NCBI RefSeq assembly: GCF_036711975.1
Contig: NC_091973.1
Coordinates: 1,860,001 to 1,924,000, forward strand
From: Onthophagus taurus
Lineage: Eukaryota > Arthropoda > Insecta > Coleoptera > Scarabaeidae
Direction: 5' to 3'
Length of the DNA stretch: 64,000 bases
The notes beneath the pieces were generated by a model. That model did not search any database and was not told where the DNA came from. It saw only the letters and a list, made by a program, of their open reading frames with translations. Within the stretch, counting starts at the first letter, position 1; each line of letters opens with the position of its first letter. This document shows, one piece after another, positions 35,500 through 63,666 of this stretch. The translations under genes and the position numbers were made by a program.

Positions 35500-47537
<12,038 letters not shown>

Positions 47538-48739
47538 TTCTCCTTACACCTAGGCCCCCACGATACCCTAAAAAGAAATTTTAATCCAAAAAAAATTTTT
47601 TATTTATATCAAAGAATGAGCCTAACTTTACCTGATGGGCGAATTGTTGGAACGAAGGCACAAATTGACGTACAAAAATACTTAAACATTAACATTTGAA
47701 TATAAATAGAATTCAAATAGTTACTAAATACTTTTGTGACTTCATTACGTTTTAAAAAGCTAAGTGTACTAATTTTTTTGGATTTTAAATTTAATAAACT
47801 TTTTCTACGGAAAATAAAGAAGAAAGTTTTTCGTCTTGAACCGACGATGTCCAATTCCTTAAGTGGAAAAACACCCACGAGATATTTTGGATGGGACTAC
47901 GTGACGTCATATATTTTCCAGACTTCGTGCCGACAAACGCGCTTGCGCCCTCGCCAGTGCGCAGTCAAATAAAAATCAATGTAGCATTGGATAGTTTTTC
48001 AGTTTTGATGATTATCGGATAATTCCCATCAAAATAGATCATTTCGAACAAAAATTAAAACAAATTTTAATAATAATCGAAATTAATTCAGAAAAAAATT
48101 AAAAAAAAAAATTAAATTAAATTGAATTACAGAAAAATGCTTGGTTGTTTGATCAAAAATATGATGGGATTACGGTCATGGTAGGGGTTAATTAGTAAAA
48201 TGTAGATTCTAGATAGATTAGGGGTTAATTAAAAATGAATCAGTTAAGTGATTACTGATGTAAAAAAAAGATATTAATTAAAGAGAGATGTTTTTGTGTT
48301 AACATTTTCTTTTGTGACAAAAAAAAAATATTTGGTTAGTCAAAAAGAAACCTGCCCAAGACAATATATCTCAGGTTTTACGATTCCCGATCATTAAATA
48401 TGTAGCCTTAGTTCCGGGAGAATTCATGAACGATGCATAACATCGAATTCACGGAATCGTTGGGGAAGTTTTCGTAATACGGAAGGTTTCTAAACGTTCC
48501 CGAGAGCTGCTTAGGAAGCGAGCCTATGCGACAGAATAATCGATACGCAGGATTGACCCATAAACCGACGGCCTCAAATAAAAAAGGTTAAATTAAAATA
48601 AACTCTTGGTCTCGTTGTTGCATTTTCTTTTTGGGGGGCTCGCACAATATATTTTACTTACATCAACTTTCTTTGTTACGTGTGTATGTCCTTGAAAAAT
48701 CATGTGAGGTATTAGTCTTCATTTATTGCTGGTGGCTTA

Positions 48740-50649: not shown

Positions 50650-53600
50650 ATGAAATTAAAATTGTTAGAAATTGGTTGTGGTTTTCTCTTGGGAGTTTAT
50701 TTATTCGTTGGCGTTGCCGCCACCGTGAGACAACTTCCTCATTGCATCGAAAATTCCAATCAAGGGTAAGCTTCAAAAATCAAACAGTGTTTATCAATCA
50801 TTTAATCATTCTTTTTAGGCTTATTTTAGTAAGCACTTTAGATGGCAAATTAAGCGCTTTAAATACTTCCGGAGTGCTGTCATGGCAAATTTCAACTGAT
50901 CCAGGTTCGCTTCTTAAATCAAACATTCATAATCTACAAGTAAGTATGAAGTTATATACAGGTGTCCCATGTAAGAGCTGTTAAACGCATATATTTTATG
51001 ATCTACTAATAAAAAAATAAATGAAATTGCGATTGTTTGTATTATTTTGATTAATTTTGCTATATCTCAATAACTGCAACAGATAGGTATAGGGACATGT
51101 AGTGAAGATTTGTAGAGAATTAAATTCTCTAACTGATAAGCGAATCAAATATGGGTTGTAATTAAATATGGCAAAACAGCAGTTATATTTTTGAACACTG
51201 TATAAGATAGATCAATGTAGCCGATTTTGATTAATTCTGCTATATCTCAACAACTGCAACAGATAGGTATAGGGACATATACTGAAAATTTGTAGAGAAT
51301 TAAATTCTCTATCTGATAAGCGAATCAAATATGGGTTGTAATTAAATATGGCTAAACAGCAGTTATATTTTTGAACACTGTATAAGATAGATCAATGGTG
51401 CCGATTTTGATTAATTCTGCTATATCTCAACAACTGCAACAGATAGGTATAGGGACATATACTGAAAATTTGTAGAGAATTAAATTCTCTATCTGATAAG
51501 CGAATCAAATATGGGTTGCAATTGAATATGGCAAAACAGCAGTTATATTTTTGAACACTGTATAAGATAGATCAATGTAGCCGATTTTGATTAATTTTGC
51601 CATATCTCAACAACTGCAACAGATAGGTATAGGGACATGTACTGAAGATTTGTAGAGAATTAAATTCTCTATCTGATAAGCGAATCAAATATGGGTTGTA
51701 ATTAAATATGGCAAAACAGCAGTTATATTTTTGAACACTGTATAAGATAGATCAATGTAGCCGATTTTGATTAATTCTGCTATATCTCAACAACTGCAAC
51801 AGATAGGTATAGGGACATGTAGTGAAGATTTGTAGAGAATTAAATTCTCTATCTGATAAGCGAATCAAATATGGGTTGTAATTAAATATGGCAAAACAGC
51901 AGTTACATTTTTGAACACTGTATAAGATAGATCAATGTAGCCGATTTTGATTAATTCTGCTATATCTCAACAACTGCAACAGATAGGTATAGGGACATAT
52001 ACTGAAGATTTGTAGAGAATTAAATTCTCTATCTGATAAGCGAAACAAATATGGGTTGTAATTGAATATGGCAAAACAGTAGTTATATTTTTGAACACTC
52101 TGTATAAGATACATCAATGTAGCCGATTTTGATTAATTCTGCTATATCTCAACAACTGCAACAGATAGGTATAGGGACATATACTGAAAATTTGTAGAGA
52201 ATTAAATTCTCTATCTGATAAGCGAATCAAATATGGGTTGTAATTAAATATGGCTAAACAGCAGTTATATTTTTGAACACTCTGTATAAGATAGACCGAC
52301 ATAGCCAGTGAATATTTATCTATTTAAGGATATCCAAGCAGCAAATTAAGATTTAAAGAACACAGTGTTAATTGCTAAAAAAGTTTCTAATTAAAATAAC
52401 TCAAAAACTAAAAGCACTAAATATTTCTCTTTTTTATAGTTAACTAATAATGGGGAATGGATACAAATAATTCCTTCATTAACAGGAAGTTTGTATAAAT
52501 TTAATGGAAAAACTATAGATGCCATTCCAATAACAGCTGAAAGCCTTCTTAAATCCTCCTTTGTTTATGCCAATGACATAGTCATTGCTGGGGGGAAAGA
52601 AGTAAAAACATACGGAGTTGGACTCCATACTGGACATATTTTATATACTTGTTCAGTGAATGGGTGTCATAATAAGACACAAAACGATGGGGAGATTGAC
52701 GACGTCATTATTATCGAGAGGAACACTCTCACTGTTCATGCTCATGAGCCACGAACTGGAAGTGAAAGGTATTTTAAAGTGTTAAAACTTATGTTGCTAT
52801 TTAATAAATGTCTTATCTTTATAGATGGAACTTCAGTGTGGGACATCACAACGTAAAAATACCACATCACGATTGCGCAAATTTAATCACGACAAAGATG
52901 GATTTTAACATCACAGCAATACCTCCAGAGGGGCTTATACAAGCATCAAAAATAGAAGATAAGGAAAATAAATTTATTTGGGAGAAAAAATTTGAATCTC
53001 CTATCGTGGACGTTTGGATATGGGATGGAAAAGATTTGCAAAGCGTCGATACTTTTGAATCGGCCGCGATTGTAGAAAATGATGTTAAGAATAATCCTCT
53101 AATTTACTTAGCGATGCATAACAAACAATTGTATATCCACGAATCGAAGGAGATGTTAAAAAAGTTGCAACACAGCCGGTATAGCGAGTATGAAGTAATT
53201 GAAAGTAAAGGTGTTTTAACTATTCCATGGAAACCGGTTGTGGCATCATCTTCGGATGTAAACACGAAAGATCTTGACCAATCCACCGCTATTTCCGTTT
53301 TGTATGGGTCAGAATACGTGAACGGAAATGGATTTTATTTATATGATGAAGAAAAGAAAGACGAAGATGCCTACTCTTGCCCGGATAATTTAACCGACGC
53401 GGGAACTTTCGAAAATGGAATGTTATTTCTTTGGCCACTACAATGGCATTGGACGATCCATCTAACAATTATTACCGCAATTTGCGTAGCTTATTTCCTA
53501 TGTAATTTTGAAGTTAAAACTCAACCCGATTGCATAGTTCAAATTGATACAAAACGAGTCCCTTCCGTATCCAACGCAACAGAACCGGAAACATCAACTT

Positions 53601-54706
53601 TTACATCACATTACGAATGTAGCTTCGAAACGATTGGTTGTTTGGGTAAAGGAGGTTTCGGGGTGGTCTTTGAAGCCAAACAAAAAATTGATCAATGTGG
53701 TTATGCCATTAAAAGAATCACGTTGGATAAAGAAGAATACACCGAATTGGTTCTGCGTGAAGTTAGAGCATTAGCCAATTTGGATCATAAGAATATTGTT
53801 CGATATTTTAATTCGTGGTTTGAAAGACCACCGCTAGGTTTTTGTTATGAACATGATAAAGATCTGATTGAATCGACGTACGATGAAACTACCCCAGTGA
53901 AAACACACAAAAATACGCATAAAAGGAACAATTCCACTATTATTGATATGAGCGAAATGGAATCTTCTGGTGGGATTGTATTTTTAGATGAAACTAAGAC
54001 GGATAAAAAGAGTGGCATTACTAATAATAAAAATCATCAGATATCCACGCCATCACAAAGTATTTCTTACAAAACAAAATCTCACTCAAACGATACAAGA
54101 GAAACATTTGTTGAACGAACCCCAATTTATCTTTATATTCAAATGCAATTGTGTCAAGCGGAAAGTTTAAAAGAATGGTTGCTCGATAACTCGGATAATC
54201 GGGATAAAACGTTTTCGTTAAATATATTTAAGCAAATAGTTGAAGCAGTCGCTTATGTTCACTCAAAAAATTTGATACATAGAGATTTAAAACCCAGTAA
54301 TATCTTTTTCTCCATGGAAGGAATAATTAAAGTTGGCGATTTTGGTTTAGTTACTACGATGGATAATATTTCCGATAACAGCGTGGCATTTAACGAGTCA
54401 ATTTTGCAAAGCCATACTAAAGGTGTTGGAACTCAACTTTACATGAGTCCCGAGCAAATTGAAAAGAAAAAGTACAATTACAAAGTCGATATTTATTCTT
54501 TGGGGGTGATATTGTACGAATTAATGGTTCCGTTTTCCACCGAATCGGAAAGGATTAGAACATTGACTGATTTACGCAAAGGCAATTACGTTGAGGAATT
54601 CGTAAACGATCACGATTACGAATTTCGGGTGCTCCAAAATATGCTGGCGCACAATCCGGATGATCGTCCGACAACGGCTCAAATTCAAACGTCGTTGTTT
54701 TCTTAA
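50650..54706 (+). CDS. PEK: PEK/PERK eIF2alpha kinase, ER-stress sensor
   Basis: Exons 50650-50765, 50819-50939, 52440-52768 and 52825-54706 join in phase to give 815 residues. A hydrophobic leader (FLLGVYLFVGVAATV) starts the ER-luminal sensor, which has the beta-propeller-like phrase LVSTLDGKLSALNTSGVLSW. A membrane span (~398-415, IHLTIITAICVAYFLC) is followed by the cytosolic kinase domain (~453-815). The glycine loop GKGGFGVVF, Lys ~485 in YAIKRI, HRDLKPSNIFF (~676), DFGLVT (~694) and GTQLYMSPEQ are all intact. A ~100-residue insert lies between the lobes (~523-621), a hallmark of eIF2alpha kinases. It phosphorylates eIF2alpha during the unfolded protein response. It is shorter than typical PERK (~1000-1100 residues), mainly in the luminal part and the insert. 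The first exon is inferred from splice phase and the leader. Confidence 0.94.
51041..52307. repeat. 180 bp satellite in PEK intron 2, seven monomers
   Basis: CCGATTTTGATTAATTCTGC starts at 51221, 51401, 51581, 51761, 51941 and 52123, with the first partial unit from ~51041. The period is exactly 180 bp until a 2 bp insertion (ACTCTGTATAAG) in the last two units. Monomers are ~97% alike by eye. Because 180 is a multiple of 3, stop-free frames run through the array without meaning. Confidence 0.97.
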
Positions 54707-55434: not shown

Positions 55435-57960
55435 GTTAGTGATATAAGAAATAATCTCGGCCGACTTCGAAGACGTCGGTCGCCCCAAGTATTCTTAACA
55501 ACACTTAGGGCGGCCAAGATTATTTCTTCCATAAACAACATATACAACTTTTAAAACTATGAATTTAGCAAATTTTCATATTTTTCTCGATATTTATGCA
55601 TCTGAGCGTAAAAGTGAAAGAGAGCAATATTGTTAAGAATAAAATTTGCTACAACTTTTATTCTAAAAGTTTTTTTATAGCATGCTCCGATTCTGAAATG
55701 TTACCATTACCTACTTAAAACAACGAAATTCATAAAATTTTCATATTTTCGTATTTTTCTCGATATCTATGCATCTCAGAGCAAAAGTGAAAGGGAGCAA
55801 TATTGTTAAGAATAAAATTTGCTACAACTTTTGTTTCAAAAGTTTTTTTGTAATGTGCTCCGAATCTCGAGTGATGCCATTAACAACTTGTAAAACTACG
55901 AATTTAGCATATTTTCGTATTTTTCTCGATATTTATACATCTGAGAGCAAAAGTGCTAGAGAGCGATATTGTTAAGAATAAAATTTCCTACAACTTTTGT
56001 TCTAAAAGTTTTTTTGTAATATGCTCCGAACCCCAAGTGTTTTGATATAAGGAATAATCTCGGCCGACTTCGAAGACGTCGGCCGCCACAAGTATCCTGA
56101 ACAATACTTAGGACGGCCGACGTCTTCGAAGTCGGCCGAGATTATTTCTTCCATAAACAGCATATAACTTTTAAAACTATGAATTTAGCAAATTTCATAT
56201 TTTTCTCGATATTTATGCATCTGAGTGTAAAAGTGCAAGAGAGCAATATTGTTAAGAACAAAATTTGCTATAACTTTTGTTTCAAAAGTTTTTTTGTAGT
56301 GTGCTCCGAATCTCGAGTGACACCATTAACAACTTGTAAAACTAAGAATTCAACAAACTTTCATATTTTTGTATTTTTCTCGATATTTATGCATCTGAAA
56401 GCAAAAATGAAAGAGAGCAATATTGTTAAGAATAGAATTTGCTACAACTTTTATTCTAAAAGTTTTTTTATAGCATGCTCCGATTCTGAAATGTTACCAT
56501 TACCTACTTAAAACAACGAAATTCATCAAATTTTCATATTTTCGTATTTTTCTCGATATCTATGCATCTCAGAGCAAAACTGAAAGAGACCAATATTGTT
56601 AAGAATAAAATTTGCTACAACTTTTGCTTCAAAAGTTTTTTGTAGTGTGCTCCGAATCTTGAGTGATACCATTAACAACTTGTAAAACAACGAATTCAGC
56701 ATATTTTCGTATTTTTCTCGATATTTATGCATCTGAGAGCAAAAGTGCTAGAGAGCGATATTGTTAAGAATAAAATTTCCTACAACTTTTGTTCTAAAAG
56801 TTTTTTTGTAATATGCTCCGAACCCCAAGTGTTTTGATATAAGGAATAATCTCGGCCGACTTCGAAGACGTCGGCCGCCACAAGTATCCTGAACAATACT
56901 TAGGACGGCCGACGTCTTCGAAGTCGGCCGAGATTATTTCTTCCATAAACAGCATATAACTTTTAAAACTATGAATTTAGCAAATTTCATATTTTTCTCG
57001 ATATTTATGCATCTGAGTGTAAAAGTGCAAGAGAGCAATATTGTTAAGAACAAAATTTGCTATAACTTTTGTTTCAAAAGTTTTTTTGTAGTGTGCTCCG
57101 AATCTCGAGTGACACCATTAACAACTTGTAAAACTAAGAATTCAACAAACTTTCATATTTTTGTATTTTTCTCGATATTTATGCATCTGAAAGCAAAAAT
57201 GAAAGAGAGCAATATTGTTAAGAATAGAATTTGCTACAACTTTTATTCTAAAAGTTTTTTTATAGCATGCTCCGATTCTGAAATGTTACCATTACCTACT
57301 TAAAACAACGAAATTCATCAAATTTTCATATTTTCGTATTTTTCTCGATATCTATGCATCTCAGAGCAAAACTGAAAGAAACCAATATTGTTAAGAATAA
57401 AATTTGCTACAACTTTTGCTTCAAAAGTTTTTTGTAGTGTGCTCCGAATCTTGAGTGATACCATTAACAACTTGTAAAACAACGAATTCAGCATATTTTC
57501 GTATTTTTCTCGATATTTATGCATCTGAGAGCAAAAGTGCTAGAGAGCGATATTGTTAAGAATAAAATTTCCTACAACTTTTGTTCTAAAAGTTTTTTTG
57601 TAATATGCTCCGAACCCCAAGTGTTTTGATATAAGGAATAATCTCGGCCGACTTCGAAGACGTCGGCCGCCACAAGTATCCTGAACAATACTTAGGACGG
57701 CCGACGTCTTCGAAGTCGGCCGAGATTATTTCTTCCATAAACAGCATATAACTTTTAAAACTATGAATTTAGCAAATTTCATATTTTTCTCGATATTTAT
57801 GCATCTGAGTGTAAAAGTGAAAGAGAGCAATATTATTAAGAACAAAATTTGCTATAACTTTTGTTTCAAAAGTTTTTTTGTAGTGTGTTCCGAATCTCGA
57901 GTGACACCATTAACAACTTGTAAAACTAAGAATTCAACAAACTTTCATATTTTTGTATTG
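55435..57960. repeat. Composite tandem repeats: satellite-B monomers plus GC palindromes, 792 bp period
   Basis: Two levels are visible. The basic ~180-200 bp monomer has CTCGATATTTATGCATCTGA, AGAGAGCAATATTGTTAAGA, GTTTTTTTGTAATATGCTCC and ACAACTTGTAAAACTA. Groups of monomers alternate with a foldback pair of GC palindromes (56060-56145, 56852-56937, 57644-57729). The whole 792 bp unit is tandemly repeated: ATGAATTTAGCAAATTTCAT occurs at 56179, 56971 and 57763, with almost no differences between the first two units. The apparent ORFs that repeat every 792 bp are by-products. Confidence 0.95.
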
Positions 57961-58935
57961 AGCATAAACAACGATTTAAAAATCAGAATGCTATATTTTT
58001 CTGTAGTCCTTTAGGAGGTTGAGACATTGATGGAGCCCCCTATTGAAAATAATAACAATTTTAGAGGGTAACACGCATAATAGCCTATTAAGACACCTCG
58101 TTGAATGATTTTCCCACACTTGGGAACACATATCCAATGAATTCATAATAGTTGAATCCCCACTTTCTTTGATAACTTCTTGCAGTGTTACTGGTACTTG
58201 GTCACTTCCAGAGATCTGGAAGAATGTGATAGGGGGTATGAGTGAAACAGGTTTGAACGAATTGAATTACTATTTCAACACCGGGAGGTATAAACAAAGT
58301 CTGATTCTATATTTAAGTATTAATAATAGGATTAGAATTATTCAGTCCATTTTTTCTTGTGATTTGATTAAATCAATAGTTTCTTATACTGTTAATTCTT
58401 CCATTATTAATAATCCGTTCTATTTCTTCGATATATACCATTCAACTTTTCCATGTGTTGTTTTCAAAATAAATTTTTTCCTGCCTTTATTACCACATTT
58501 TGCTAATAATAAGTCACTTCTGAAATGAAATTGGATTTATATATGATTTAAACAAAATATTTTAGACAAAATTTGATCAATCGAACCTGCAGTATTCTTT
58601 TGGTTCCAACTGTACTTGCGCTTGCTAAAACTTGTTCCTTTGGATTATTAATTTAAAACAATTTAAAACGTCCATAATGTATCTCTGAGTGCAAATAAAG
58701 TTAAAACGAGAAAATTAACTTTATTAATTGGTAATTTTTATAAAAAGATAGATATTTTTTGTTTAATAACTTTACTTATCATAATTTGTAGGTTAAGTTC
58801 GCTTATAGTTCGAATATTTTTCGTTTTGAGGTTGGCGCTTCACGATTCGTATTTGATTTAAATTAAATTCTCCGCATTCGAGGTATTTTTACTTTTAATA
58901 ATTTATTTATTACAACAAAATGTTTAATTTGTCTC
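57961..58935. other. Intergenic DNA before the kinase-only gene, no supported gene
   Basis: Contains one 119-codon ORF (58169-58528) opening with SLPEIWKNVIGG-like sequence, faintly like the start of a reverse-transcriptase segment, but the remainder is low-complexity and I do not support it as a gene. The right part is AT-rich promoter-proximal DNA. Confidence 0.35.
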
Positions 58936-58980
58936 AATCTTAGGTATTCCAACGATATTACCAATCCAAGCTAAATAACT

Positions 58981-60027
58981 ATGGTAAGACATCACACATT
59001 TCTATGATCACTTTAAAACATCTCATTTTCACAGGAACACGAATCATATTTAGACGTAATTAAGAATTATGGGCAGCCACCACGCCAATCAACTTTTGCC
59101 TCATATATGGAAACCACCTTCAATGTACTTAGTAATTTGGGTTCCGGAGGGTTCGGAAGTGTTTTTGAAGTAAAACATAGGAATACTGAACGTAGTTATG
59201 CTATTAAAAGAGTTAAAATAGAACGAAATAAAGGCGTGGATTATGCTATCCGTGAAATGTTGGTGTTAAAAGCGTTGAATCATCCGAATATTGTTCGATA
59301 TTTTGACTCATGGCTGGAACGAACACCCTCTGATTTTTGTTACGATCATTATTATTACTATAATTGTAACAAGTCATCTTGTAACTTAACGAAAGCTGTG
59401 GCATCCCGTTGTAACTGCTGCCCTGTGAATCCTCACTCAAATGACATGAAAATTTTCTTTTTTATTCAAATGGAGTTGTGTCTAACAGGAAGTTTAAAAG
59501 ATTGGCTGTTTTTCACCGCGCCTAATCGCGTTAAAGCGGATTCTTTAGACGTTTTTAGACAAATTGTTGATGGAGTTGCTTATATTCATTCTAAAAATTT
59601 AATACACCGAGATTTAAAACCGTGCAACATTTTTTTCTCATTGAATGGAGTCGTGAAAATTGGAGATTTTGGCTTAGTCACTAGTATGGATAACCATGGT
59701 AACAACGAAGAGTTAGACAACTCAATAGAGCAAAGTCACACGCGAGGTGCTGGAACACAGCTCTATATGAGCCCAGAAGTATATTATACGAAAACGTACG
59801 ACAATAAAGCTGATATTTTTGCGTTAGGGATGATATTGTACGAATTAATGGTCCCATATTCAAACGAAGAGGATAGAACTAGAGGATTGATAGATTTACG
59901 ACGAGCAATATATAACGTAGTCTTCGTATTGAATGATATACACGAGTTTCACTCAGTTGTAAATATGATGTGTATAAATCCGGATGATCGTCCAACAATT
60001 TTCGAAGTTAGAGAAATGTTTTCTTAA
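58981..60027 (+). CDS. PEK-like protein kinase lacking luminal and membrane regions
   Basis: The exon ending ATG|GTAAGA (58981-58983) joins to 59035-60027 after a 51 nt intron ending TTTTCACAG, giving 331 residues. The frame is open through that junction, adding 25 residues before Met 59107. The protein is one kinase domain: glycine loop GSGGFGSVF, Lys ~59 in YAIKRV, the NIVRYFDSWLE block, HRDLKPCNIFF, GDFGLVTSMDN and GTQLYMSPEV. All catalytic residues are present. NIVRYF-SW, DFGLVT-MD and VPYS-ED-R-L-DLR match the neighbouring PEK and mark it as a PEK-type eIF2alpha kinase rather than GCN2. The inter-lobe insert is only ~40 residues and Cys-rich (CNKSSC, RCNCCPV). There is no signal peptide or membrane span, so it should be cytosolic or nuclear. 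It is probably a local duplicate of PEK's last exon; expression is unknown. Confidence 0.85.
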
Positions 60028-60255
60028 AAATTATTTATTTGTTTCACTAAGTTTTGATAAATTAAAATTATTCTGTGTTATTAAATGTTATTTAAAAAAA
60101 TTAGTCGCATTCCTGTGATACATTATTATTAAGCAATGTTTTCTTAAAAATTATTTATTTGTTTCACTAAGTTTTGATAAATTAAAATTATTCTGTGTTA
60201 TTAAATGTTATTTAAAAAATTAGTCGCATTCCTGTGATACATTATTATTAAGCAA
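60014..60255. repeat. ~120 bp direct duplication including the kinase stop codon
   Basis: ATGTTTTCTTAAAAATTATT at 60016 is repeated at 60136, followed by near-identical sequence through GTGATACATTATTATTAAGC. The second copy thus carries an out-of-context copy of the last codons and stop of the kinase gene. A more diverged third echo runs from ~60256 to ~60450. AATAAA at 60448-60453 could be the polyadenylation signal. Confidence 0.9.
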
Positions 60256-60530
60256 TCGTTTTTGATTTACCTCTGTGATAATGTATTTTCAAATATAGTT
60301 TACTAAGTTATAAATATTAATTGTTCTGCCTTTTTGAACGTTAATATATAGCGAATTAAAATAGTCTTATTGTTGTGATATGTTAATATTAAGCAAACGT
60401 TTTTGATAATGTATTTTGTAATAAAAATTGTTCACTAAGTTTTGATAAATAAAGTTTATATTTAATATAATTCTTCAAAGTAACTTTTCCCCCAAAATTA
60501 ATTGGAATCGGAACACCAGACATAGCGGTA

Positions 60531-60650: not shown

Positions 60651-60797
60651 GCAGAAGAAACGATATCTAACGACGGGAAAAAATTAAGATATGTCCAATA
60701 CATAAGAAGAGTCAGAAAATGAAGTCCGAAAATTACATTGCTGTGCACTCAAAAGACGCCAAACATAGTGAATATCAACATTAAAAACTTTATTGAA

Positions 60798-62490
60798 GAA
60801 ATAATCTCGGCCGACTTCGAAGACGTCGGCCGCCCTAAGTATTGTTTGCGATACTTGGGTTGGGTTCTGTTTGGCTGAGATTATTTCTCAACCCAACCCA
60901 ACCTACGTTTTGTACTTGATACTTAGGTTGGGTTGCAGGCGAAGATCATGCTCCATCACGAACAATACTTATGGCGGCCGACGTCTGCGAAGTCGGCCGA
61001 GATTATTACCTATATCAACAGAAATAATCTCGGCCGACTTTGAAGACGTCGGCCGCCCTAAGTATTGTTTGCGATACTTGGGTTGGGTTCTGTTTGGCTG
61101 AGATTATTTCTCAACCCAACCCAACCTACGTTTTGTACTTGATACTTAGGTTGGGTTGCAGGCGAAGATCATGCTCCATCACGAACAATACTTATGGCGG
61201 CCGACGTCTGCGAAGTCGGCCGAGATTATTACCTATATCAACAGAAATAATCTCGGCCGACTTCGAAGACGTCGGCCGCCCTAAGTATTGTTTGCGATAC
61301 TTGGGTTCTGTTCTGTTTGGTTGAGATTATTTCTCAACCCAACCCAACCTACGTTTTGTACTTGATACTTAGGTTGGGTTGCAGGCGAAGATCATGCTCC
61401 ATCACGAACAATACTTATGGCGGCCGACGTCTGCGAAGTCGGCCGAGATTATTACCTATATCAACAGAAATAATCTCGGCCGACTTCGAAGACGTCGGCC
61501 GCCCTAAGTATTGTTTGCGATACTTGGGTTCTGTTCTGTTTGGCTGAGATTATTTCTCAACCCAACCCAACCTACGTTTTGTACTTGATACTTAGGTTGG
61601 GTTGCAGGCGAAGATCATGCTCCATCACGAACAATACTTATGGCGGCCGACGTCTTCGAAGTCGGCCGAGATTATTACCTATATCAACAGAAATAATCTC
61701 GGCCGACTTCGAAGACGTCGGCCGCCCTAAGTATTGTTTGCGATACTTGGGTTGGGTTCTGTTTGGCTGAGATTATTTCTCAACCCAACCCAACCTACGT
61801 TTTGTACTTGATACTTAGGTTGGGTTGCAGGCGAAGATCATGCTCCATCACGAACAATACTTATGGCGGCCGAACAAGTATTGTTCATGATATAAGAAAT
61901 AATCTCGGCCGACTTCGAAGACGTCGGCCGCACTAAGTATTGTTCGCGATACTTAGGTTGGGTTGCAGGTGAAGACCATGCTTCATCATAAACAATACTT
62001 ATGGCTGCCGACGTCTTCGAAGTCGGCCGAGATTATTACCTATATCAACAGAAATAATCTCGGTCGACTTCGAAGACGTCAACCGCACTAAATATTGTTC
62101 TTTAGACTTACAGGCGAAGATCATGCTCCATCACGAACAATATTTATGGCGGCCGAACAAGTATTGTTCATGATATAAGAAATAATCTCGGCCGACTTCG
62201 AAGACGTCGGCCGCACTAAGTATTGTTCTTTATACTTGGGTTGGGTTGCATGTGAAGACCATGCTTCATCATAAACAATACTTATGGCGGCCGACGTCTT
62301 CGAGATTATTACCTATATCAACAGAAATAATCTCGGCCGACTTGGAAGACGTCTGCCGCCCTAAGTATTGTTCGCGATACTTAGGTTGGGTTGAGTTGGG
62401 TTGGATTAGATTACATATAGGCAAAGATCATAGGCGAGATTATTTCTGTTGATATAAAAAATAATCTCGGCCGACTTCGAAGACGTCTTC
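60798..62490. repeat. Tandem array of a 223 bp foldback (MITE-like) unit
   Basis: Units start with GAAATAATCTCGGCCGACTT at 60798, 61021, 61244, 61467 and 61690 (exact 223 bp spacing), then degenerate copies with deletions run to ~62490. Each unit begins with the GC palindrome plus CCCTAAGTATTGTT and ends with the inverse AACAATACTTATGGCGGCCG plus palindrome and GAGATTATT, so each is a ~50 bp-armed foldback. Inside are AACCCAACCCAACC and GGTTGGGTT blocks. Repeated ORFs every 223 bp are artefacts. Confidence 0.95.
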
Positions 62491-63013: not shown

Positions 63014-63666
63014 ATGTTTGCACTTAGACGACCGGCATTTGTAAGACATTTTTCTGCACTAGTTAAAAACATGGAAAAGTTGGAAGTTGTCCCCGATGTT
63101 ATCGATCAAGTTCCCAAGGAAGTCTGCAAGGTATAATTAACACGAATCGAATTTAATTTCTGAATTAAGTATGTCTATTTGGTTTCAAGGTTAGCTATCC
63201 AAGTGGTGTCAAGGTTGATCTTGGGAACGTTTTGACGCCGACTCAAGTTAAAGACATTCCAAACGTGGAATGGACAGCCGATGATAGCGCTTTATACACC
63301 GTTTGCATGACGGATCCGGATGCTCCAAGTCGCAAAGAACCGAAATTTCGCGAATGGCATCATTGGTTAGTGGGAAACGTTCCCGGAGCTAACATTTCTA
63401 AAGGAGAGACTTTATCTCAATACGTCGGATCTGGACCGCCTCAAGGAACCGGATTACACCGTTACGTTTTTTTGATTTACAAACAAAATGGAAAATTAAA
63501 TTTTGATGAACAGAGACTTACAAACACTTCAGGGGATAATAGAGGATGCTTTTCAATCAAAAAATTTGCCGAAAAATATCAATTGGGTCAACCTGTCGCT
63601 GGTAATTTTTATCAAGCCGAATGGGACGATTACGTTCCTATTTTGTACAAACAATTGGGCGGATAA
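63014..63666 (+). CDS. Phosphatidylethanolamine-binding protein (PEBP/RKIP family)
   Basis: Exons 63014-63130 and 63190-63666 join in phase 0 (GTATAA donor, TTTCAAG acceptor) to give 197 residues. The PEBP core is clear: the ligand-site block [20 protein letters not shown], then [18 protein letters not shown] and [20 protein letters not shown]. From family knowledge, these residues form the phospholipid/phosphate pocket. The first 19 residues ([18 protein letters not shown]) are basic, without acidic residues, and resemble a mitochondrial targeting leader. Met20 (63071) would give the usual ~178-residue cytosolic form. AATAAA at 63676-63681 is the probable polyadenylation signal. The assignment to PEBP is firm; the Raf-inhibitor role is not implied. 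Confidence 0.94.

Follow-up and report, generated by a model that had tools for sequence, protein, structure and literature searches.

In the stretch of Onthophagus taurus DNA analysed here (64,000 nt, hereafter the window), we found next to PEK, which is the genome's orthologue of PERK, a second gene of PERK-clade ancestry whose sequence-based model comprises the kinase domain and neither luminal sensor nor membrane span. It has evolved under purifying selection and differs from eight reference kinases at exactly four of the positions on which these agree, all four lying at the dimer interface or in helix alphaG. The explanation that we prefer, and hold with about even confidence, is that a duplicate of the last PEK exon gave rise to a soluble kinase that would depend less on dimerisation, phosphorylate eIF2alpha less and use substrates differently. 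That the gene is expressed, and its product soluble, active and shifted in substrate use, we infer from the evidence presented below.

Gene model and surrounding locus

The first-pass annotation had described an intact 331-residue kinase 4.3 kb downstream of PEK in the same orientation, with its start codon alone at the end of an upstream exon and a 51-nt intron behind it. The open reading frame and splice model bore out the first of these statements, and an enumeration of possible introns the second. The two genes are arranged as follows.

50650..54706, + strand: PEK, complete, 4 exons, 815 aa
58981..58983, + strand: start codon ATG of the paralogue, sole coding part of its upstream exon, the same ATG in all 3 candidate models
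58984..59034, + strand: predicted intron of 51 nt, GTAAGA...TTTTCACAG, with donor ATG|GTAAGA and acceptor TTTTCACAG
59035..60027, + strand: main coding exon with the kinase domain, residues 2-331 and stop, as judged from the open frame, Pfam, PERK structures and the tree

To define the 5' end, we listed the GT-AG introns 45-120 nt long whose acceptor falls within 58985-59099, requiring an in-frame ATG upstream. Three models survived, all of them with the same donor, and among their acceptors the one at 59035 had the best pyrimidine tract (11/15, vs 7 and 6 for the other two). The donor scores 7/9 against the consensus, the ATG is preceded by A at -3 and, after splicing, followed by G at +4, and without splicing the frame from 58981 runs into a stop after 8 residues. 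The resulting product of 331 aa (ATG, 51-nt intron and one coding exon) is a sequence-based model. An alternative start is the first in-frame ATG inside the exon, at residue 26 (59107). Yet PEK can be aligned to STF and other residues directly before this ATG, and the two genes begin to resemble each other at the DNA level at 59088, 53 nt into the coding exon, so that coding probably begins further upstream. At the other end of the gene, a 120-bp tandem duplication at 60015-60262 (2.1 copies, 98% matches) starts within the final codons, and the end of the frame and the flanking downstream DNA are thus repeated.

The exons of PEK lie at 50650-50765, 50819-50939, 52440-52768 and 52825-54706, with the kinase domain wholly within the last. 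Short introns occur here too (2/3, of 53 and 56 nt), and two hydrophobic stretches of the protein, at residues 8 and 399, fit a signal peptide and a membrane span respectively. About 4.3 kb separate the end of PEK from the ATG of the paralogue on the same strand, and much of this gap is taken up by one array.

55544..57954, + strand: tandem repeats, units of about 170 bp grouped into a higher-order unit of 792 bp

The 300-nt units compared within this array are 97% identical to the first. A 180-bp satellite is present some seven times in intron 2 of PEK (51044-52295, 96% matches), and a 223-bp tandem repeat of 5.3 copies at 60797-61964 carries palindromic GGCCGACTTCGAAGACGTCGGCC-like motifs, similar motifs being present near 50.0 kb and within the 55-58 kb array. 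At 63172-63666 lies an exon of a phosphatidylethanolamine-binding protein (PF01161, E 3.3e-19), and upstream of PEK, on the minus strand at 35503-47540, are open frames that resemble, in a reading by eye, a voltage-gated sodium channel (para). No RNA family reached its gathering score at 50-64 kb.

Between the two lobes of its kinase domain the paralogue carries a distinctive insert.

59323..59451, + strand: inter-lobe insert, residues 98-140, 43 aa with 6 Cys

Within boundaries that we set ourselves, this insert holds 6 of the 9 Cys of the protein (enriched, Fisher p = 2e-4), vs 1 Cys in the 99-aa insert of PEK, in keeping with the earlier description of a short Cys-rich insert unlike that of PEK; a role in metal or redox sensing is speculative. 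An AlphaFold2 model computed from a two-row alignment had a mean pLDDT of 31, a pTM of 0.20 and 0 residues at 50 or above, and no conclusion rests on it.

Ancestry and selection

The Pfam Pkinase profile (PF00069) matched residues 30-325 of the exon translation (E 2.6e-48), and the best PDB matches were PERK (E 1.3e-59). At E 1e-30 or better there were 19 PDB sequences, 17 of which are named eIF2alpha kinases (PERK, PKR, GCN2, HRI), the other two carrying generic names and closely matching GCN2. In maximum-likelihood trees of 8 and 9 kinases, built from the eIF2alpha family alone with no kinase from outside it, the paralogue was the sister of PEK (support 100/98), with branch lengths of 1.59 (8 sequences) and 1.34 (9 sequences) vs 0 for PEK; the alternative in which PEK and mammalian PERK group together and the paralogue falls outside was rejected weakly (AU p = 0.023, with a warning from the program about long branches). 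PEK and the paralogue are identical at 159 of 317 aligned residues. Judged by these sequence comparisons, the paralogue belongs inside the eIF2alpha kinase family, in the PERK clade, and the tree with PEK, GCN2 and HRI suggested in the first-pass annotation does not place it outside PEK. Its best genome matches were itself, PEK and then weaker kinases, one of them a GCN2 as judged by tblastn, and the candidates scored in the 291-Mb assembly (121 of the 204 first-look candidates) included no second copy.

That the ER leader, luminal sensor and membrane span are missing, as had been claimed, was confirmed by tblastn and hydropathy, which found none of the three in the paralogue. Homology with PEK begins past the PEK membrane span, and the kinase alone matches. 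A whole-PEK tblastn over the window returned only the kinase near the paralogue and no luminal-domain match, and the most hydrophobic 19-residue stretch of the paralogue, which lies in the kinase core, has a mean of 1.25 vs 2.15 for the leader and 1.78 for the span of PEK. An upstream exon encoding a luminal domain, named beforehand as an observation that would count against this picture, was looked for in the same search and rejected, with nothing found between 54.7 and 59.0 kb. We also rejected a 5' end captured from another gene: a genome search that passes over simple repeats and highly frequent words matched 58560-59095 only to itself and gave no donor for the new 5' exon. As for a virus-borne relative, none was present among viral contigs, where 2 stretches fit a pattern and 0 were confirmed. 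The proposed origin, duplication of the last PEK exon plus a new 5' exon, gains support from the sister relationship, from the onset of DNA similarity at 59088 and from the lack of a luminal match.

Pairwise codon maximum likelihood between the paralogue and PEK gave omega = 0.236 (vs 1, p = 3.2e-12; dS 1.5, dN 0.36), and the cruder NG86 count gave dS 0.94 and dN/dS 0.37. Because most of the amino-acid change probably fell on the paralogue branch, we fixed the omega of PEK at low values (0, 0.02, 0.05 and 0.1) and, assuming equal synonymous rates, obtained omega of 0.45 to 0.33 for the paralogue branch (vs 1, p = 2.4e-4 to 1.7e-5 for PEK omega of 0 to 0.1), which stays below 1 even with all amino-acid changes assigned to this branch (p = 2.4e-4). 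The changes hit 19 of 96 positions common to PEK, PERK and PKR vs 89 of 143 others (p = 5e-11). Neither stop nor frameshift interrupts the 331 codons. Neutral simulation from the PEK sequence (257 codons, 2000 runs at each of five distances) left 1 of 10,000 runs stop-free, so an open frame at such divergence is not due to chance. Relative-rate tests found the paralogue faster than PEK with PERK as outgroup (45 vs 9 unique changes, p = 7e-7) and with HRI (35 vs 12), the excess being not significant with PKR (28 vs 22, p = 0.48) or GCN2 (25 vs 14, p = 0.11). Given the low omega and the avoidance of conserved core positions, the codon evidence indicates that the paralogue is under purifying selection, relaxed relative to PEK. 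By the same evidence it has neither the disabled frame nor the neutral evolution expected of a pseudogene, and the dN/dS near 1 that the annotation had said would mark one was not found.

Residue changes at the dimer interface and helix alphaG

We compared the paralogue with eight references, which represent only four family types: PEK, two PERKs, PKR, HRI, two PDB GCN2s and the GCN2 of this genome, pieced together from tblastn matches on L010. All eight are identical at 54 columns, and the paralogue differs at exactly four of these, PKR D289 (Thr), V309 (Met), T487 (Asn) and E490 (Asp). The last two fall in alphaG, the helix that docks eIF2alpha.

59185..59187, + strand: codon 52, Thr for Asp (PKR D289, dimer contact), Asp in 8/8 others
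59257..59259, + strand: codon 76, Met for Val (PKR V309, dimer contact), Val in 8/8 others
59863..59874, + strand: codons 278-281, start of alphaG, with N278 (PKR T487) and D281 (PKR E490)

Two features of the family are missing from the paralogue: Thr at T487, present in 8/8 others including the PEK and GCN2 of this genome, is Asn278, and the dimer-interface Asp at D289 is Thr52. When the interface was taken as the PKR dimer contacts plus alphaG (486-499), 4/7 invariant interface columns were changed vs 0/47 others (Fisher p = 1.1e-4), a p value that, like the one below, is partly post hoc and indicative, the alphaG range having been chosen after the T487 change was noticed. With seven references, before the GCN2 of this genome was added, the counts were 4/7 vs 2/49 (p = 0.0013).

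For control, with the paralogue outside the reference, we left out PEK, PERK, PKR, HRI, the two PDB GCN2s, the GCN2 of this genome and all three GCN2s. In this order, the interface columns broken were 0/7, 1/8, 1/8, 0/7, 1/8, 0/7 and 1/8, and those broken overall were 0/54, 3/57, 4/58, 2/56, 2/56, 2/56 and 14/68. From these controls, the number of invariant columns broken by the paralogue is, at the level of sequence, unexceptional; it is their placement that is exceptional. When the paralogue was counted among the references, on an alignment of 8 rows, the broken columns were 0/50 for PEK, 2/52 for PERK, 3/53 for PKR, 7/57 for HRI, 9/59 for each PDB GCN2 and 6/56 for the paralogue.

Both D289 and V309 are among the published dimer contacts of PKR, in which D289 forms a bond with Y323 of the other protomer (PMC3534215). 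T487 of PKR is reported to be highly constrained; it stabilises alphaG and brings about the change in eIF2alpha that phosphorylation requires, and E490 is listed among the sites where many variants evade K3 and retain function (PMC11556786). A further study describes PKR-T487A as catalytically active and able to phosphorylate RNA helicase A, and as unable to regulate translation via eIF2alpha (PMC2637979).

The catalytic K296, E308, HRD and DFG and the activation-loop T446 and T451 are all retained in the paralogue, as are R499 and the interface tyrosines Y293 and Y323. The alphaF-alphaG spacing, from D470 to T487, is 18 residues in the paralogue and in 7/8 others, and 19 in the GCN2 of this genome. 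With its catalytic residues and both threonines intact, the protein should be capable of kinase activity, and the missing sensor together with the changed pairing surface makes switching as in PEK unlikely.

Preferred explanation, rivals and significance

We propose that the last exon of PEK was partially duplicated in tandem and gained a new 5' exon, and that the copy would thereby have become a separate soluble protein kinase. Without the luminal sensor and membrane span it could not be expected to answer ER stress like PEK. With the dimer interface (D289T, V309M) and the eIF2alpha-docking end of alphaG (T487N, E490D) altered, it may, as a kinase, rely less on PERK-type dimerisation, phosphorylate eIF2alpha to a lesser extent and have a new substrate or a wider range of them. 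The T487 and D289 changes, together with the parallel of PKR-T487A, make such altered substrate use more likely than an eIF2alpha kinase that has simply lost its tether. The first-pass annotation had proposed an untethered kinase acting on eIF2alpha or on another target: the first half of this is weakened by the loss of T487 and D289, and the second fits better. Going further, one may imagine a natural case of a PERK-derived kinase leaving eIF2alpha behind, its sensor cut off by duplication, its dimer interface and alphaG dock, both invariant in the eIF2alpha kinases aligned, changed by selection and a new target served from a locus beside that of its parent; we regard this as a tentative idea, with a chance of perhaps one in three.

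Several considerations speak against the preferred explanation. T487N may be milder than T487A, Asn being a good helix cap and perhaps able to replace Thr in capping alphaG; PKR tolerates variants at E490, and the change from E to D is conservative; and the alphaF-alphaG spacing typical of eIF2alpha kinases is kept together with R499. Moreover, the PKR dimer rules may not transfer to the paralogue, because PEK here is also without the R262-D266 pair, the PKR dimer salt bridge: it has H and S at these positions, where PERK, HRI and GCN2 carry R and D/E. Finally, since mutations that disrupt the dimer are said to block PKR activity (PMC11457141, PMC5345052), the interface changes could, on this analysis, have produced a weak or inactive kinase and not a redirected one.

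The rival that survives best, which we consider unlikely at about one chance in four, is a soluble eIF2alpha kinase outside ER control, whose alphaG changes are tolerated and which drives the integrated stress response at a basal level or upon a different trigger. It is consistent with the PERK-clade position, with the retained catalytic residues, T446, T451 and alphaF-alphaG spacing, and with the tolerance of E490 in PKR (PMC11556786). The genome search returned one EIF_2_alpha match, which fits this rival and led us to reject a duplicated eIF2alpha as a private substrate. Human HRI matched only PEK and the paralogue at E 1e-15, with the caveat that the GCN2 of this genome also misses this cut-off and an HRI may exist. 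Set against this are the loss of T487, present in 8/8 other kinases, the inability to regulate eIF2alpha ascribed to PKR T487A (PMC2637979), and the loss of D289, bonded to Y323 across the PKR dimer (PMC3534215).

Improbable, at about one chance in eight, is the functional decay of a gene that was once constrained and is now relaxed or unexpressed. The faster evolution of the paralogue (45 vs 9 changes, PERK outgroup, p = 7e-7), its end branch of 1.34 vs 0 for PEK, the broken family-invariant positions and the lowered activity that interface changes could bring (PMC11457141, PMC5345052) would all agree with decay, which is opposed by 331 codons free of stop or frameshift, by omega <1 on the paralogue branch and by the avoidance of conserved core positions. 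Slightly less probable still is a regulator of PEK or eIF2alpha that pairs with the PEK kinase domain or competes for substrate. For such a role baculovirus PK2, a decoy, offers a parallel. The paralogue is indeed a neighbouring duplicate of PEK and has kept Y293 and Y323, but its catalytic residues are conserved, which a decoy would not need, and its pairing surface is altered at D289 and V309. A reading of the frame as an alternative final exon belonging to PEK, suggested by the shared strand and the 4.3 kb distance, is very improbable beside an intact start codon of its own joinable through a short intron (in an enumeration limited to introns of 45-120 nt).

Returning to the preferred explanation, the paralogue resembles PERK (EIF2AK3, insect PEK) in kinase ancestry (100/98), catalytic core, activation-loop threonines and alphaF-alphaG spacing, and departs from it in having no luminal-sensor match or membrane-span-like stretch, a Cys-rich insert of 43 instead of 99 aa, and changes at the D289, V309, T487 and E490 positions. 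HRI and GCN2 are soluble eIF2alpha kinases with homologous kinase domains; both keep the residues at these four positions, whereas the paralogue does not, and it lacks their regulatory domains. The closest experimental parallel that we found is PKR T487A, a laboratory mutant in which the alphaG threonine is likewise gone and the catalytic site intact (PMC2637979); here the change is natural, from Thr to Asn, in the PERK lineage and accompanied by several others. Fish and amphibian PKR duplicates are likewise lineage-specific duplications within the eIF2alpha kinase family, and they concern PKR with varying numbers of dsRNA-binding domains, unlike the PEK without sensor described here (PMC2291453). 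In the open-licence literature, no insect PEK duplicate was found among the matches listed, as judged by title and opening of the abstract. This absence is weak evidence that a sensorless PEK paralogue with altered family-invariant interface residues is new.

What characterises the eIF2alpha kinases is one main substrate and pairing driven by a sensor. A natural duplicate that has kept its catalytic site while its pairing and docking surfaces changed would show how such specificity is lost or rewired, and a parent-offspring pair of kinases about 4 kb apart provides material for swap experiments. If the paralogue still phosphorylates eIF2alpha, T487 would prove replaceable, and the animal would have gained an eIF2alpha kinase free of ER stress.
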